Below are positions 36,735 to 44,341 of a stretch of 44,528 nt of DNA, piece by piece; position 1 is the first letter of the stretch; each line of letters begins with the position of its first letter. This DNA comes from Candidatus Chloroploca asiatica (GTDB lineage Bacteria > Chloroflexota > Chloroflexia > Chloroflexales > Chloroflexaceae): positions 1 to 44,528 of the forward strand of contig NZ_LYXE01000106.1 in the NCBI RefSeq assembly GCF_002532075.1. Direction: 5' to 3'. The notes under the pieces are model-generated. The model saw nothing but the letters and a program-made list of their open reading frames with translations, was not told where the DNA came from and did no database searches. Position numbers and translations under genes: made by a program.

Positions 36735-37688
36735 GGCCGCACGCTCAACCCAGTCGCGCAGATCCTCGGGCAAGGGGCAGTTCAGTTGGAGTGGTTCGTG
36801 TGTCACCGGGTGCGTCAGGCTGAGTATGCCGGCATGCAGAAGATGTCGTTTAATTGGCACCCCGGAAACCTCGTTCGGCCCACCATAGGTGGCGTCGCCG
36901 AGGATCGGATGCCCCAGATGCGCCAGGTGAAGCCGAATCTGATGCGTGCGCCCGGTGTGCAGTTCAGCCTCGATCAGCGCGTAGTCACCGTACCTGTGCA
37001 GGCACTTGAAACTAGTCTGTGCTCCTTTGATGCGCCCGCCACCTTGCGGTAACGTCTGACCAATCTCATCTTCCCCATAGAGACGCCAGCGCCCGTGCGC
37101 TGACCGTCCGTGGCCTGTCGTCAGAGAGCAATGCATCCAATCGGGGCTGCCAGCACATACCGCCAGATAGCGTTTGATCACGCTACGCCCAGCAAATGCA
37201 TCATGCAGCGCACGATTGATGCCGGCGTCGCGACTAAAGAGCAGCAACCCCGAGGTGTCGCGGTCAAGTCGGTGCGCCGGATGCAAGACGAGGTCTGTAC
37301 CGTCGCGCGCCATGAGGTAGGTTTTCAGCGCAACCCATACATTGCCAAACCGATCCCACGGGGTTTCGATGGTGTACCAGCCAACCGCTTTATTGAGCAC
37401 AACCAGCCAGCGATCTTCGTACACAAGATCAGCCGCCGTCACGACCGGCTCGGCATAGATACCGTTCGGAGGCAGGCGTATCGTCACCTGATCCCCAGGT
37501 TCCAGCGTCAAATCCAACGCCAGAACCCGTCGCCAGTTCACCCAAACCCCGCCACGTTCCAGCGCTGTTGTCCCCACTGTGCCAGCCATAGATGCGACAA
37601 GTTCGGCGAGAGGCACCGCACTCTCACCTTCACTGACCGTATGCATGATAATGGAGGGCAATGCCGCTGGATCAGGCCCACTGCTCAC
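36729..37688 (-). CDS. RluA-family pseudouridine synthase
   Basis: The 319-residue protein has the RluA catalytic core: the motif HPAHRLDRDTSGLLLFS with the catalytic Asp in HRLDRDTSG, ELHTGRTHQIRLHLAHLGHPILGD and the C-terminal LLHAGILSLTHPVT. It isomerises uridine to pseudouridine in rRNA or tRNA. An N-terminal stretch (about residues 1-90) with VWVNWRRVLALDLTLEPGDQV resembles an S4 RNA-binding domain. The GTG start overlaps the lutC stop (GTGA), so translation is coupled, though the function is not related. The end overlaps the convergent 4-OT gene by 6 nt. An internal ATG at 37646 is an alternative start. Confidence 0.87.
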   Translation of the reverse strand: MSSGPDPAALPSIIMHTVSEGESAVPLAELVASMAGTVGTTALERGGVWVNWRRVLALDLTLEPGDQVTIRLPPNGIYAEPVVTAADLVYEDRWLVVLNKAVGWYTIETPWDRFGNVWVALKTYLMARDGTDLVLHPAHRLDRDTSGLLLFSRDAGINRALHDAFAGRSVIKRYLAVCAGSPDWMHCSLTTGHGRSAHGRWRLYGEDEIGQTLPQGGGRIKGAQTSFKCLHRYGDYALIEAELHTGRTHQIRLHLAHLGHPILGDATYGGPNEVSGVPIKRHLLHAGILSLTHPVTHEPLQLNCPLPEDLRDWVERAAL

Positions 37689-38383
37689 GGGGTCTGCACA
37701 AGCACAACGTGGAGTTCGGGCGGCCCGTGAATGCCCAACGAGAGCGTCATCTCAATATCAGCCGTGCGCGAGGGACCACTGATAAAGGTCAGATTACTGG
37801 TGGCATCAAAGAGTGTTCCAGCATAGCGTTCACGCAAGCGAGTCATCGCCTCACCGAGCCCTCGGACGATCTGGTCGCTCCGGATAACTGCAATGTGCGT
37901 CGGGGCCAGCAACGAGGCCAGCCGTGGGCGGCCCGGCCCGTGGTAGAGCACCAGGCTGCCACTCTCGGCGATCGCAAACTCGGCCCCCGAAAGACAGACC
38001 GGGGCCGGTTCGAGCACCTGCAACTGCGCCTTCCGCGCCTCGTCGCGCACCACCGGATCGAGCACCTGCACGCCACGTTCAGCCAACAGTGTATCAAGAC
38101 CGGGGAGCCCAATCTGCGCACGATCCCAGGCGACTGCCATCGTGGCCTTGCGCGCCTCAAGCAGCGTCGCAATGGTTTCGAGGGCCTCTTCATCATCAGC
38201 AACCTGATATACGCGGCCCTCCAGTTTCGTCAATTCGGCGGCAAACTGGGCCGCCAGATCATCGGCGGGAGGCAACACAAACGGTGGTGGCGTATGCGGG
38301 GCCTTCTGCGCCTCCGCCTCAAGCCAAGCCCGGTTCGAAGCAAGACTCGTCCGTAACGTTGCTAAGATCTGTTCACGACTCAT
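37685..38383 (-). CDS. lutC: Lactate utilization protein C (LUD domain)
   Basis: The 232-residue protein has the LUD/LutC fold, with PAPVCLSGAEFAIAESGSLVLYHGPGRPRLASLLAPTHIAV and the C-terminal NLTFISGPSRTADIEMTLSLGIHGPPELHVVLV, which are typical. LutC works with LutA and LutB in oxidation of L-lactate to pyruvate. The ATG at 38383 overlaps the lutB stop (ATGA), so the start is well supported. AAAGG lies upstream inside lutB. The next gene overlaps its end. lutA is not in the window. Confidence 0.9.
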   Translation of the reverse strand: MSREQILATLRTSLASNRAWLEAEAQKAPHTPPPFVLPPADDLAAQFAAELTKLEGRVYQVADDEEALETIATLLEARKATMAVAWDRAQIGLPGLDTLLAERGVQVLDPVVRDEARKAQLQVLEPAPVCLSGAEFAIAESGSLVLYHGPGRPRLASLLAPTHIAVIRSDQIVRGLGEAMTRLRERYAGTLFDATSNLTFISGPSRTADIEMTLSLGIHGPPELHVVLVQTP

Positions 38384-39804
38384 TGCGTACGCCCTTTCTT
38401 CTGGCGTTCTTCCCACCATTCGCTAAAGCTCTGCGAGCCATGGGGTTGCGGGAAATCGCGCCCATGCGTCCAGAGGTGCAAGGGAGGCGGGAGATGACGA
38501 ATCCGCCCTTTGCGCCCGATGAGGCGTGAACCGAGGCGAGCAGCACGGCCACCAGCGCGATAGACCAGCGGATTCTTCATCATAAGCGCGTAGCTCTTGA
38601 TACCTGCCGTTTCTACCGGATGGGCCTTGCCTGCCTTGACGGCATCGGCGCGCAGGCGTAGCAGCATATCGGGGATCGCAATCCCAACGGGACAGACCTC
38701 CTGGCAGGCTCCGCAGAGCGAACTCGCCTGAGGCAAAAGGTAGGCATCGGGCAGATCGGGCTGAAGGAGCGGGGTAAGGATCGCCCCAATGGGGCCTGAA
38801 TAGACACCGCCATACGCATGACCACCGATCGCCTGATAGACCGGACAAGCATTGAGGCAGGCCCCACAGCGAATGCACATCAACGACTCGACATACTGCC
38901 CGCCCAGGATGCGCGAGCGACCATTGTCGAGCAACACCAGGTGAAACTCTTCGGGGCCATCGGCCTCGTCGGGACGAGCCGGGCCGCTGATGATGCTCGT
39001 ATAGACACTCATTTTCTGGCCGGTGGCCGAACGAGCCAACACCTGAAGCATCACCGCCAAATCATCAAACCGCTCGACAATGCGCTCGATGCCCATAATC
39101 GCCACATGGATGCGCGGCACCGTCGTCGAGAGGCGGGCATTGCCCTCGTTCTCAACAATTGCGATGGCACCCTCTTCGGCGACACCAAAATTGACCCCGC
39201 TAATGCCCATTTCAGCCTGGAGAAACCGTTGCCTCAGCGCCGTCCGGGCGGCGCGGATCATCGGCGGCACTTCGGTCGTCGGTGTCATCCCGAGGTGCTC
39301 TTCGAAGAGCGCGCTTACCTGTTCACGAGTCTTATGAATCGCGGGGGCAATAATATGCGACGGCGTTTCGCCGGCAAGCTGAATAATATACTCGCCGAGA
39401 TCAGTTTCGACCACCTCAAAGCCAGCGTGTTCGAGGGCATGGTTGAGGTGAATCTCCTCCGAAGCCATCGACTTGGATTTGACGATGCTCTTGACCCCAC
39501 GGTCGCGGGCAAGATCGACAATATAGCGGCGGGCGGCTTCGCCATCAGCAGCCCAGCAGACCTTGCCACCACGGGCCTCGACCTGATCGGCCAGACGTAC
39601 CAACAACGCATCGAGTTTACTCAACGCATTGGCCCGTAACGCCCGCGCCTGACGGCGTAGCCCATCAGCATCTTCAAGCGCATCAATCGCCCCGGCTCGA
39701 TTGCCCACAAACCGTGTGGTTGCCCGCTCCAGCGCCGTCTTCAAGGTCTCGTCATGCAGCGCCGTATCAACCCTGTCGTGAAAATGAAGCGTCTGGGTAG
39801 CCAT
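38380..39804 (-). CDS. lutB: Lactate utilization Fe-S protein B
   Basis: The 474-residue protein has an N-terminal LUD domain (KSIVKSKSMASEEIHLNHALEHAGFEVVETDLGEYIIQL, GVNFGVAEEGAIAIVENEGNARLST) and a C-terminal 4Fe-4S dicluster with CIRCGACLNACPVY and CGACQEVCPVGIAIP. This is the standard LutB layout. It passes electrons from lactate oxidation. LutA, normally encoded next to it, is absent from both sides, so it must lie elsewhere or be replaced. The divergent gap to the histidine kinase gene is about 190 nt. Confidence 0.92.
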   Translation of the reverse strand: MATQTLHFHDRVDTALHDETLKTALERATTRFVGNRAGAIDALEDADGLRRQARALRANALSKLDALLVRLADQVEARGGKVCWAADGEAARRYIVDLARDRGVKSIVKSKSMASEEIHLNHALEHAGFEVVETDLGEYIIQLAGETPSHIIAPAIHKTREQVSALFEEHLGMTPTTEVPPMIRAARTALRQRFLQAEMGISGVNFGVAEEGAIAIVENEGNARLSTTVPRIHVAIMGIERIVERFDDLAVMLQVLARSATGQKMSVYTSIISGPARPDEADGPEEFHLVLLDNGRSRILGGQYVESLMCIRCGACLNACPVYQAIGGHAYGGVYSGPIGAILTPLLQPDLPDAYLLPQASSLCGACQEVCPVGIAIPDMLLRLRADAVKAGKAHPVETAGIKSYALMMKNPLVYRAGGRAARLGSRLIGRKGRIRHLPPPLHLWTHGRDFPQPHGSQSFSEWWEERQKKGRTQ

Positions 39805-39992: not shown

Positions 39993-42626
39993 ATGCCACG
40001 CACAATCCGCCGCACGCCTCGTCGGCGTCTCCAGCATGCCAATCGCCTCTACCGAGTGCTGAGTCGGGTCAGTGAGACGATTGTGCGCCGGAATGACCGC
40101 CTGCTGCTTTTTGCCGATGTCTGTCAGATTGCGGTGGAAGAAGGGGGCTTCAAACTCGCCTGGATCGGACTGGTCGATGAACGGACGGGTCGCGTGGTGC
40201 CGATGGGCGTCAGCGGGGAAGCGTCCTCATACCCCTATGCGATCAAGGTGACGAGCCGGGATGAACCGGCGGGTCGCGGGCCGACAGGCACCGCTATTCG
40301 TGAAGGGCGTGCGGTAGTCTGCAACAACATTGCCGACAGCGTCAACACACGTCCGTGGCACCATCTGGCGGCCCATCATGCCTTACGAGCCTCAGGGGCG
40401 TTTCCGCTCGTTGTTTATGGACGGGCCATCGGTGCGCTCAACCTCTATGCCGATAGCCGGGGCTTTTTTGATCGGCAGGAAGTCGGCATGCTCGAACAGG
40501 TCGCAAATGTAATCTCGTTTGCGCTCGAAAAACTGGAAGAAGAAGAGCGCCGCAACCGCGATGAGACCAACCGCCAGCTTGATATTGAACGGCAAGAGGC
40601 CCTGCTGCACCTGACCGAGATGACCAGCCAGAGCGAACGTGAGGTAATCGAGTATGCACTCGAAGAGGCAGTGCGACTGACCAGCAGCAGCATTGGGTAC
40701 CTCCACTTTGTCCTTGCCGATGGTGTCAACCTCCAACTGTTTACCTGGTCAAGTAGCGTACGCGAGGCGTGCTCGGTCGCCGCGAACACCCACTATCCCA
40801 TCGCCAGCGCTGGCGTGTGGGTGGATTGCCTGCGCACGCGAGCCCCCGTCTTCCACAACGATTATCAAAATCTCCCCGATCGTCATGGCTACCCCGAAGG
40901 GCATATCCATCTGATCCGCCATATGAGTGTCCCCCTGATCGACGGCGACCAGATCGTGGCAATTGCCGGCGTGGGCAATAAACTTGATCATTACGATGAG
41001 AAAGATGCCCGTCAGTTGCTCCTCTTTATGAGTGGCATGTGGGCGATGATCCAGCGCAAACGCGCCGAGTCGGCCCTCCGCGAGAGCGAAGCGCGCTACC
41101 GACGCCTTACCGAACATGCCCCTGACATCATCTATCGGTACCGCCTGCACCCCGATCCAGGCTTTGAGTATGTAAGCCCGGCGGTCACGACCCTGACTGG
41201 TTATACCCCAGACGATCATTATGCCGATCCGCAACTTGGCTATAAATTGATCCATCCTGAAGATCGCCATACCCTGAAAGATATGGCGGAAGGAGGCTTG
41301 AGTTTCAAGCCAATGGAATTGCGCTGGGTATGCCGCGATGGTGCTGAACTCTGGGTTGAACAACGCAATGTACCTGTCTACAATGCCACTGGCGAGATCA
41401 TTGCGATCGAAGGGATTGCGCGTGACATCACGGATCGTAAACTCGCCGAGACGACCCTGCGGGCTGAGCGGGCCCAACTTGAATACTGGGTGATGGAGCG
41501 AACGCGCGATCTGCGCCACGAACGTGATCGCACCCGTGCGATGCTCGAAGCCTTGAGCGAAGCCGTGATTGTCGTTGATCCAAACGGGGTCATTGATTAC
41601 CTCAACCCTGCCGCGACTACCCTGACTGGGCTGCACGGCGGGATCAGTCCGACCGTCTGGGCATGGTGGCGCACACAGACGGCTGACGCAAACCCGAATG
41701 CTCAACTCTGTGCAGCGCTGAAGACTGGACGCCGCTGGCAGGGTGAGGTGACGCTGGTTGATGCCAGTGGTATTCCCTACGATGCGGCGATCACGGTTGC
41801 CCCCCTCTTCGATCCTGATGCACCAGGCCATCCCGTGCGTTTTGTGACGGTTCACCGCGATATTACGGCAACCCGGGCTGCTGAGCGGATGAAGGATCAG
41901 TTTGTCTCGAATGTCTCGCACGAGTTGCGCTCACCCACCTCGTTGATCACCATGCTTTCGGGCAATCTCGAATTGCTCTACCACCGGCTTGATGATACCC
42001 GTCGCCTCGCGATCATTGCGGATATTCGTGCCCATACCCGTACCCTGAATGAACTCATCGGCAGTGTCCTGGAAATTTCACGCATTGACGGCGGGCGTGT
42101 GGATGGTGAACGCCACAGCATCGATCTGATGCGCCTGGTACGCGACGAGGTAGCCCAGTTTCTGCCGGTAGCGCGGCGCAAACATTTGAACCTGACAGTC
42201 GAGCGCGGTCAGGCCCTGCCCATCATTGCGGAAGAGGGCCAGATACGCCAGGTCTTGCGCAATCTCTTGACCAACGCGCTCAAGTTCACGCCTGAGCATG
42301 GCCAGATTGTGTGTACAGGGGTCATCGTTGCCGATCAACTTGATCATACCTGGCCTGGGCACGTACGCCTGCCAGCTGGGCAATGGGTGGCCCTACGGAT
42401 CAGCGATAATGGCATCGGCATTCGGACAACGGATCTACCACATATCTTTGAACGTTTCTATCGTGCCGAAACCCAAGGCAACATTCCTGGTACAGGGCTG
42501 GGCCTCTCGATTGCCAATGAACTGGTGCGCCTGCATGGCGGCACGATTGAAGTCAGGTCGACCCTGGGAATGGGCAGTACCTTTGTCATCTACCTGCCCC
42601 TTGACAGTGATGAAGAGGTCGTATGA
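39993..42626 (+). CDS. Hybrid-input sensor histidine kinase (2 GAF, 2 PAS, HisKA, HATPase)
   Basis: The 877-residue protein has no membrane helices and is probably cytoplasmic. GAF domains lie at about residues 25-180 (FKLAWIGLVDERTGRVVPMG) and 200-360 (SSIGYLHFVLADG; HMSVPLIDGDQIVAIAGVGNK). PAS domains start at about 369 (HAPDIIYRYRLHPDPGFEYVS) and 516 (MLEALSEAVIVVDPNGVIDYLNPA). The phosphorylated His643 is in SNVSHELRSPTSL. The ATPase has the N box from N757, G1 DNGIGI (about 805) and G2 GTGLGLSIANEL. It probably senses cytoplasmic signals. Its stop overlaps the response regulator start (ATGA), so the two are a cognate pair. Confidence 0.93.
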   Translation: MPRTIRRTPRRRLQHANRLYRVLSRVSETIVRRNDRLLLFADVCQIAVEEGGFKLAWIGLVDERTGRVVPMGVSGEASSYPYAIKVTSRDEPAGRGPTGTAIREGRAVVCNNIADSVNTRPWHHLAAHHALRASGAFPLVVYGRAIGALNLYADSRGFFDRQEVGMLEQVANVISFALEKLEEEERRNRDETNRQLDIERQEALLHLTEMTSQSEREVIEYALEEAVRLTSSSIGYLHFVLADGVNLQLFTWSSSVREACSVAANTHYPIASAGVWVDCLRTRAPVFHNDYQNLPDRHGYPEGHIHLIRHMSVPLIDGDQIVAIAGVGNKLDHYDEKDARQLLLFMSGMWAMIQRKRAESALRESEARYRRLTEHAPDIIYRYRLHPDPGFEYVSPAVTTLTGYTPDDHYADPQLGYKLIHPEDRHTLKDMAEGGLSFKPMELRWVCRDGAELWVEQRNVPVYNATGEIIAIEGIARDITDRKLAETTLRAERAQLEYWVMERTRDLRHERDRTRAMLEALSEAVIVVDPNGVIDYLNPAATTLTGLHGGISPTVWAWWRTQTADANPNAQLCAALKTGRRWQGEVTLVDASGIPYDAAITVAPLFDPDAPGHPVRFVTVHRDITATRAAERMKDQFVSNVSHELRSPTSLITMLSGNLELLYHRLDDTRRLAIIADIRAHTRTLNELIGSVLEISRIDGGRVDGERHSIDLMRLVRDEVAQFLPVARRKHLNLTVERGQALPIIAEEGQIRQVLRNLLTNALKFTPEHGQIVCTGVIVADQLDHTWPGHVRLPAGQWVALRISDNGIGIRTTDLPHIFERFYRAETQGNIPGTGLGLSIANELVRLHGGTIEVRSTLGMGSTFVIYLPLDSDEEVV

Positions 42627-43366
42627 AGAGCATGGCTGCGATTCTCGTCATTGACGATCAGATCGAGCATCTGCAAGCCGTACAGATGCTACTCGAGGCC
42701 GAAGGGTATCGCGTGACGCTGTGTACCTCGGCGAGCGAAGCACTGACCATCCTTGAAACAGAGCCGATCAATCTGATCCTGGCTGATGTCGCGATGCCGC
42801 AAATGAATGGCTACCAGTTGCTCGAAACGATTCGCCGTCGGGTTGAATGGACCGGTATTCCCCTGGTCTATCTGACCGGCCGTGCCCTTGACAGCGATAT
42901 TCGGTTTGGCAAAGCGCTCGGTGCTGACGATTACCTCACGAAACCGATTCAACCAGAAGATCTCCTGGCCGTGGTCGAGGGCAAATTGCGACGATATGCC
43001 CAACTGCTCCAGCAGACACCCGCTGTCCAGCCAACCAGCGTCGAGCAACTACTCCAGCTTGGGCCGCTGCTAATTGATCCTGAGCGCCACCGCGCCTGGA
43101 TACACGAAGAAGAACTGATGCTCTCCGCACGAGAATTCACCCTGCTCACCTGTCTCGTGCGTCAGGCTGGCCGCGTCATGTCAGCACGAGAGTTGGTACG
43201 CATCACGCACAAACTTGACCTCGACGACACCGACGAAGCCCGTGAACTGGTTCGTCCCCTGGTACGTACCCTCCGGCAGAAACTGAACCTTTCACCTGGA
43301 CAACCAGGATCCATCGAAACCGTGCGCGGCCTGGGCTATCGCATGCTCGAAGTACCTCCGCTGTAA
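42623..43366 (+). CDS. OmpR/PhoB-family response regulator
   Basis: The 247-residue protein has a receiver domain (about residues 1-125) with the acidic pair in VIDDQ, the phospho-acceptor Asp55 in ILADVAMP and Lys107 in LTKPI, and a winged helix DNA-binding domain (about 150-245) with LSAREFTLLTCLVRQAGRVMSARELV and the wing RGLGYRML. It is the cognate partner of the upstream kinase, with a 4-nt overlap. Two downstream promoters carry 11-bp tandem repeats placed as for a PhoB-type activator, so this protein is the likely binder, though this is inferred. Confidence 0.93.
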   Translation: MKSMAAILVIDDQIEHLQAVQMLLEAEGYRVTLCTSASEALTILETEPINLILADVAMPQMNGYQLLETIRRRVEWTGIPLVYLTGRALDSDIRFGKALGADDYLTKPIQPEDLLAVVEGKLRRYAQLLQQTPAVQPTSVEQLLQLGPLLIDPERHRAWIHEEELMLSAREFTLLTCLVRQAGRVMSARELVRITHKLDLDDTDEARELVRPLVRTLRQKLNLSPGQPGSIETVRGLGYRMLEVPPL

Positions 43367-43373
43367 GCTCACC

Positions 43374-43433
43374 AAACTTCACGCAAACTTCCCGTAAGTT
43401 ATGCTTCTCAGCATCGACATGCTCGGTTATGCT
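43374..43433 (+). promoter_or_regulatory. Promoter with tandem 11-bp repeats before the PAS-domain gene
   Basis: Two direct repeats AAACTTCACGC (43374-43384) and AAACTTCCCGT (43385-43395) are followed by 9 nt, a weak -35 TTCTCA (43405-43410), 17 nt, and a -10 TATGCT (43428-43433). OmpR/PhoB-family activators typically bind such 11-bp repeats just upstream of a weak -35. The next gene begins 31 nt later. Confidence 0.72.
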
Positions 43434-43464
43434 GTACACAAGCTTGCCAGAATATTGACAAAGT

Positions 43465-43827
43465 ATGTTCAGAATGCACTTCGTTATGACCCAGCACTTG
43501 CCAACCACCCCCGACACTGATAGTCGTTCACAACTGCGTGCCACGATCAACCTGAGCGGATCAATCGTCTCCCTCGATGGAGCCTGGCATCAACAACTTG
43601 GGTGGCCCGCCGAGGGCTTGCTTGACACGATTTTTGTCACCCATGTCTATCCTGATGATCTCGAGCACGTGATCAGTGCGATCCATCTGGCGGTCAGTAA
43701 CGAACAACCTGTGCGCTTTCGTTGCCGCTACAGCCACTACAACAACTCGTATCTGCCAATTAACTGGCAGGCCCACTTCAAGCTTGATACCCTCTACATT
43801 GAACTGATCGGGCTCCTTGCACGATAA
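43465..43827 (+). CDS. Single PAS-domain protein
   Basis: The 120-residue protein appears to be one PAS-like domain. It has INLSGSIVSLDGAWHQQLGWPAEGLLDTIFVTHVYPDDLEHVISAI, which follows the PAS pattern of a G-W-x-x-E-L/G-like segment and an H-P-D-D-like helix start, followed by VRFRCRYSHYNNSYLPINWQAHF. No output domain is present, so it may act as a stand-alone sensor or adaptor for another protein, for example the nearby kinase. The start is unsure: ATG at 43465 or 43486, and neither has a good ribosome-binding site. Its promoter carries tandem 11-bp repeats of the same type as the CBM48 gene promoter. Confidence 0.7.
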   Translation: MFRMHFVMTQHLPTTPDTDSRSQLRATINLSGSIVSLDGAWHQQLGWPAEGLLDTIFVTHVYPDDLEHVISAIHLAVSNEQPVRFRCRYSHYNNSYLPINWQAHFKLDTLYIELIGLLAR

Positions 43828-43833
43828 TTCCAC

Positions 43834-43893
43834 AAATTGCACGGAAATTGCACGCCTGATAGCAATGACATTGAACGCACAATCCGGTATGCT
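43834..43893 (+). promoter_or_regulatory. Promoter with tandem 11-bp repeats before the CBM48 gene
   Basis: Direct repeats AAATTGCACGG (43834-43844) and AAATTGCACGC (43845-43855), 9 nt, ATGACA (43865-43870; 5 of 6 to consensus), 17 nt and TATGCT (43888-43893). The layout is identical in every distance to the promoter at 43374-43433. The leader to the ATG at 44045 is about 145 nt, and 43894-44044 holds no other recognisable element. Confidence 0.75.
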
Positions 43894-44044: not shown

Positions 44045-44341
44045 ATGGTTATCAAACACACTGTGCCTGATCAGCCCGACAAGCTACAACTCACCTTTTC
44101 TGTACCCTCCTCGATCTGGGCTGACCAGATCTATCTAGTCGGTGATTTCAACGAATGGAACGCCCGAGCCACACCACTGCGCCGCTATGAGGACGGTTGG
44201 AGTATCGCCCTCCTGGTTGACCGTGATAACCGTTACGGCTATCGCTATCTGCTTGACGACCATTCAGATATGTGTGACTGCCACGCCGATGCGTATGCAC
44301 GCGCGGCTGATGGTAGCGCGATGTCTGTCGTTGTAAGTTAA
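44045..44341 (+). CDS. Stand-alone CBM48 / glycogen-binding domain protein
   Basis: The 98-residue protein is a lone CBM48 (isoamylase N-terminal/AMPK-beta-type) domain. The typical segments are QIYLVGDFNEWN (about residues 28-39) with the aromatic and polar residues used for glucan contact, ATPLRRYEDGWSIALLV and YGYRYLLDD. No catalytic domain follows, so it may bind glycogen or target a partner to it. The family is usually fused to branching or debranching enzymes. AAGGA precedes the ATG. Its promoter shares the tandem 11-bp repeat layout of the PAS-gene promoter. Confidence 0.85.
   Translation: MVIKHTVPDQPDKLQLTFSVPSSIWADQIYLVGDFNEWNARATPLRRYEDGWSIALLVDRDNRYGYRYLLDDHSDMCDCHADAYARAADGSAMSVVVS

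Follow-up and report, generated by a model that had tools for sequence, protein, structure and literature searches.

The window (the whole stretch of DNA analysed, 44,528 nucleotides of a contig of Candidatus Chloroploca asiatica) carries in its final 4.5 kb, on the + strand, genes for a sensor histidine kinase, a response regulator (RR), a PAS protein and a CBM48 protein in this order, and the last two genes are each preceded by a pair of tandem 11-bp repeats. What reads these repeats, and to what effect? Judging from the adjacency of the RR gene, the co-occurrence of repeats and RR, and the protein family, they probably serve as the operator at which the neighbouring RR, of the OmpR/PhoB type, would activate both genes.

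The gene cassette and its promoters

The initial annotation had described at both promoters a tandem pair of 11-bp units, a weak -35 hexamer 9 nt further on, a 17-nt spacer and TATGCT, and this description is exact, base by base (Table 1). The distance from the start of the repeats to the -10 is 54 nt in both. The PAS operator starts 7 nt downstream of the stop codon of the RR gene, and the CBM48 operator 6 nt downstream of that of the PAS gene. With the second unit ending 9 nt ahead of a weak -35, the tandem 11-bp units are laid out like the site of an OmpR/PhoB-type activator, and, as in operators of this type, they repeat in the same direction about once per helical turn.

Table 1. Genes and promoter elements of the cassette, in positions of the window
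Feature	Position	Strand	Description
Sensor histidine kinase	39993..42626	+	877 aa; GAF, PAS, HisKA, HATPase_c (Pfam); orthologues adjoin RR
OmpR/PhoB-type RR	42623..43366	+	247 aa; Response_reg and Trans_reg_C (Pfam); alignment, AlphaFold model, PDB matches
PAS promoter, candidate operator	43374..43395	+	AAACTTCACGC-AAACTTCCCGT, tandem 11-bp units; conserved
PAS promoter, -35-like TTCTCA	43405..43410	+	9 nt past repeat 2; 4/6 to TTGACA
PAS promoter, -10 TATGCT	43428..43433	+	17-nt spacer after -35
Single-domain PAS protein	43465..43827	+	120 aa; PAS_3 (Pfam)
CBM48 promoter, candidate operator	43834..43855	+	AAATTGCACGG-AAATTGCACGC, tandem 11-bp units; conserved
CBM48 promoter, -35-like ATGACA	43865..43870	+	9 nt past repeat 2; 5/6 to TTGACA
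CBM48 promoter, -10 TATGCT	43888..43893	+	17-nt spacer after -35
Single-domain CBM48 protein	44045..44341	+	98 aa; CBM_48 (Pfam); orthologue alignment

The kinase and RR genes overlap by 4 nt. As the initial annotation had it, the gene upstream of the repeats encodes an OmpR/PhoB-type RR: Response_reg (PF00072) scores 89.5 bits, and Trans_reg_C (PF00486) scores 55.6 bits against a cut-off of 26.2, which identifies the winged-helix domain. The receiver residues D11, D12, D55 and K107, with the phospho-acceptor Asp, are invariant in 18 aligned sequences, and the RR is presumably controlled by phosphorylation. An alignment of 12 RR sequences shares E205, A206, R207, E208, L209, R211, P212, R215, R218, K220 and L221, all in the effector-domain helix 203-221 predicted in the AlphaFold model, which by the family fold would be the DNA-reading helix. 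The arrangement of the domains in this model is uncertain (pTM 0.54). In a structure search it resembles solved members of the OmpR/PhoB family, including the DNA-bound RpaA on the kaiBC promoter (PDB 9dvt, rank 1), KdpE (4kny and 4kfc, ranks 4-5) and PmrA on its box (4s04, rank 22); all of these are also matched by the RR sequence profile. These four structures share 28-31% identity with the RR model and superpose poorly over the whole chain (TM 0.46-0.53), as expected if the domain orientation differs or is mispredicted.

The PAS protein has a plain PAS fold in the predicted structure (mean pLDDT 88), and its derivation as a copy of the PAS domain of the kinase was rejected, similarity between them being undetectable. 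The CBM48 protein passes the Pfam gathering cut-off for CBM_48 (27.2 against 22.4 bits), and the family domain is the only one detected in it by Pfam and orthologue alignment; a CBM48 profile matched none of the solved structures at 1e-3. On the other side of the kinase, two divergent genes (37685-39804) encode proteins that resemble, by eye in their translations, LutB/LutC-type proteins of lactate utilisation. Directly after the CBM48 gene, gggtgcccttgc-type tandem repeats extend to the contig end (44390-44528; by eye).

Conservation beside orthologues of the response regulator

RR relatives at E<=1e-20 are present in all 61 genomes searched, and the best locus of each of 18 genomes was examined. 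Thirteen of the 18 aligned RRs, the own one included, are at least 54% identical to that of the window. The gene order kinase-RR-PAS-CBM48 is kept at 10 of the 18 loci, in four genera and two families; three of the ten belong to the own genus and seven to three other genera, one of these seven being in another family. In a comparison of longer stretches around five cassette loci with the window, flanking genes were shared by the sister species only, and at four loci of other genera the cassette comprises the only ORFs of at least 90 aa in common with the window.

When 16 intergenic regions from 8 genomes were searched for motifs without supervision, the paired unit emerged with the consensus GCACGAAACTtCCCGCCAGTCcCCCGC, the sites of the two sister species being added by position afterwards. 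Among the inspected offsets of 29-34 nt, TAnnnT lies 31 or 32 nt past the repeat pair in all 20 PAS and CBM48 promoters of the 10 genomes. Further single promoters with the motif stand beside RR orthologues in two more genera (G003 and G025); that of G003 precedes a PAS gene, and the G025 contig stops 406 nt past the RR gene. In these 22 predicted promoters, the hexamer 9 nt past repeat 2 agrees with TTGACA at three, four or five of six positions (6, 10 and 6 promoters, respectively), TAnnnT is always present, and the -35 to -10 spacer is 16 or 17 nt, which fits the 16-18 nt of the sigma-70 type. Variation in spacing is confined to the -35/-10 interval. Conservation in relatives, on which the initial annotation had made its proposal depend, is seen in the tandem units and their distance to the -35 and -10, which are kept beside RR orthologues of other genera.

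The thirteenth close RR relative, in G004, misfits in that its pair is weaker and a -10-like TATGAT lies at 37 nt, and this counts against the operator reading. By eye, no such promoter is seen at L113, the best (48%) among the best 80 RR matches listed from named genomes. In another RR subgroup (L016, L017, L019 and L020), a receiver-domain gene follows within a few dozen bases, leaving no room for a promoter, and a clear site is absent from wider stretches around eight further RR relatives.

Some observations touch on related loci. At L194 of G004 (- strand, from 5503), a repeat pair follows an RR relative with no obvious gene next to it, and a terminator-like hairpin about 150 nt beyond the pair possibly ends a short transcript (both by eye). 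Downstream of a diverged RR paralogue in G030, three tandem units, CATGTTCACGC, AGCTTTCACGC and AGCTTGCACCC, are found at L199:1883-1915, with TACAGT 31 nt past the second unit; other members of this RR group may therefore have operators of the same type. The CBM48 leaders of G034, G005, G020, G051, G012 and G030 (loci L008, L009, L011, L010, L006 and L012, respectively) have in common, in the stretch from the promoter to the start codon, a hairpin of the form GGCCGGAACAGnGnnGTTCCGGCC or a variant form, which is not evident by eye in the CBM48 leader of the window. Nine pairs are predicted in it over the six sequences, and two of them are changed on both sides in some sequence. A search for known RNA elements in eight cassette loci gave eight Rfam matches at E<=1, all under the gathering scores.

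With leave-one-genus-out profiles, the site ranks first in 22 of 22 regions, although this covers the scoring only, the sites having been chosen by motif search across all genera. Of 1000 dinucleotide shuffles per region, 0 to 1.8% attain the score by itself, and 0/1000 in each of the 22 regions attain it together with TAnnnT at 31 or 32 nt. With these profiles the 22 sites score 7.0-31.1 bits, and the weakest overlap the best of a control set taken from upstream of 20 further CBM48 genes (at most 7.4 bits, minus-strand gene starts being approximate), so that the weakest sites are told apart by the -10; TAnnnT at 28-35 nt occurs in none of the controls. Self-identity is maximal at lag 11 in 18 of the 22 promoters (0.49, against 0.39 at lag 10 and 0.37 at lag 12), and units 1 and 2 are identical at 0.68 of positions against 0.31 for shuffled letters. 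A third 11-bp unit reaching into the -35 is weak and is not claimed (identity to unit 2 of 0.33 against 0.26 shuffled, p 0.015; p 0.10 for unit 1).

The motif in the genome and across the order

The pattern AAAYTKCMCGNAAAYTKCMCG occurs with at most two mismatches at two places in the 5,839,665-base genome, namely the PAS and CBM48 sites, each with 0 mismatches, and the reversed pattern used as a control occurs at none. When three mismatches are allowed, there are three extra places against four for the control, none of the three with TAnnnT at the right distance. With two sister species added to the own genome, the matches at this level outside the cassettes number 15; TAnnnT, sought 32-34 nt past the 21-letter word, is absent from all 14 checked, the remaining match overlapping one of these. 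The 20 cassette promoters, the two of the window among them, were used to train profile R1, which finds the window sites at E = 5.5e-9 and 3.2e-8; the next match in the own genome, among 150 scored of 1879 first-look candidates, is partial (E = 0.16). The second CBM48 gene of the genome (L193) has no site upstream (best 0.5 bits). A wider regulon was rejected, a third site in the own genome being absent by pattern, at two or three mismatches, and by profile. Of the small regulon anticipated in the initial annotation, the two promoters stand, and further sites at equal distance did not turn up in the rest of the own genome by either pattern or profile. The candidate regulon consists of the PAS and CBM48 promoters alone, though weaker sites could have been missed.

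Across 82 genomes of the order, the profile gives 22 matches at E<=1e-3 in 12 genomes: 20 training sites, the G025 site beside the RR orthologue, and G024:C95 (E 4e-4), a G/C-rich run judged to be a chance match. The G003 site is missed at this threshold, and none of the 22 matches precedes a kinase-RR operon. That motif and RR occur together is in part a circular finding: the RR served to find the relatives, and the model had been trained on 10 of the 11 genomes with true matches. When the own genus is left out of the profile, the PAS site comes second in the own genome (E=0.14, 28 of 65 positions) and the CBM48 site is unlisted at E<=5. The repeat units are less C-rich in the own genus: the motif word has drifted, and it is position plus geometry, not a strong shared word, that carries the link. 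The candidate operator pair is real, conserved and locally dedicated.

Regulator, mode of action and meaning

Repeats of fixed spacing are conserved beside an RR with OmpR/PhoB-type domains. The activator reading of the initial annotation is supported to this extent by the RR family and the conserved layout; we infer binding and activation from the adjacency of the RR gene, its co-occurrence with the repeats and its protein family. A phosphorylated RR dimer would bind head-to-tail on two 11-bp units with a consensus of roughly AAACTTCCCGC-nAnTTnCCCGC, and the bound RR, just upstream of the weak -35, would contact RNA polymerase and switch on two single-gene transcription units, for the PAS protein and the CBM48 protein. 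The kinase, the RR, two operators and two targets would form one self-contained cassette, no site having been detected in the rest of the genome or ahead of the kinase-RR operon.

A comparable operator is the PHO box of Streptomyces PhoP, a regulator of the OmpR/PhoB family, in which direct repeat units of 11 nt are paired ahead of the target genes, sometimes with weaker units alongside (PMC7866108). The present sites have this pairing in common with it; unlike the PHO box, they precede two single-gene targets adjoining the RR gene, a further site was not found, and the units follow a word of the AAACTTCCCGC type.

This likeness would also suit another, global winged-helix RR, e.g., a phosphate regulator of the PhoB/PhoP type, binding the repeats with the adjacent RR as a bystander, and 17 places in the own genome match the RR at E<=1e-20, this RR among them. 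Such a reading is nevertheless unlikely. Many sites would be expected of a global regulator, but two were found, and the matches across the order at E<=1e-3 adjoin RR orthologues, except the chance-like one, even though all 61 genomes searched for RR relatives also have other OmpR-type RRs. The RR itself falls short of the PhoB equivalog TIGR02154 (122.1 bits, cut-off 296.2), unlike PhoB/PhoP, and phosphate-uptake genes are not among the targets of the two detected sites, weaker sites possibly having been missed.

Some OmpR-type RRs act as dual regulators, and the RpaA chain among the RR profile matches carries the name 'dual regulator'. It is, however, very unlikely that the RR binds the repeats yet represses or acts both ways, since each unit is entirely upstream of the -35, without overlap with the -35 or the -10, and the -35 hexamers are weak, as would be expected at the promoters of an activator. 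Chance or mere descent, i.e., a duplicated promoter without function, would explain the unit type and TATGCT common to both own promoters, and the two sister species, being so closely related, tell little by themselves, but it can hardly be credited given that the remainder of both own promoters is unlike by eye, that the units and spacing recur in other genera despite diverged surroundings, and that the leave-one-genus-out ranking and the shuffles make it very improbable; that identical geometry was unlikely to arise by chance, as first argued, is borne out by the pattern search in the own genome and the recurrence outside the genus.

Activation by the adjacent RR is thus the preferred reading. 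The kind of operator is already known, while this motif and target set were not found described in a literature search that covered few subscription journals, and for OmpR-family binding motifs in Chloroflexi the search gave only work on nitrogen fixation in Alphaproteobacteria. For an RR of the Chloroflexi, the sites define a candidate operator to the base; they tie a kinase-RR pair to just two targets and give a starting point for learning what two orphan proteins of one domain each, PAS and CBM48, do. It is a rather unlikely further reading that the cassette is a portable, self-contained two-component system with two free domains, a PAS sensor and a CBM48 of the glycogen type, as its entire output. 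If this were true, the kinase system would make its own soluble sensory and storage-polymer-binding partners, and reserve-polymer status could influence signalling.
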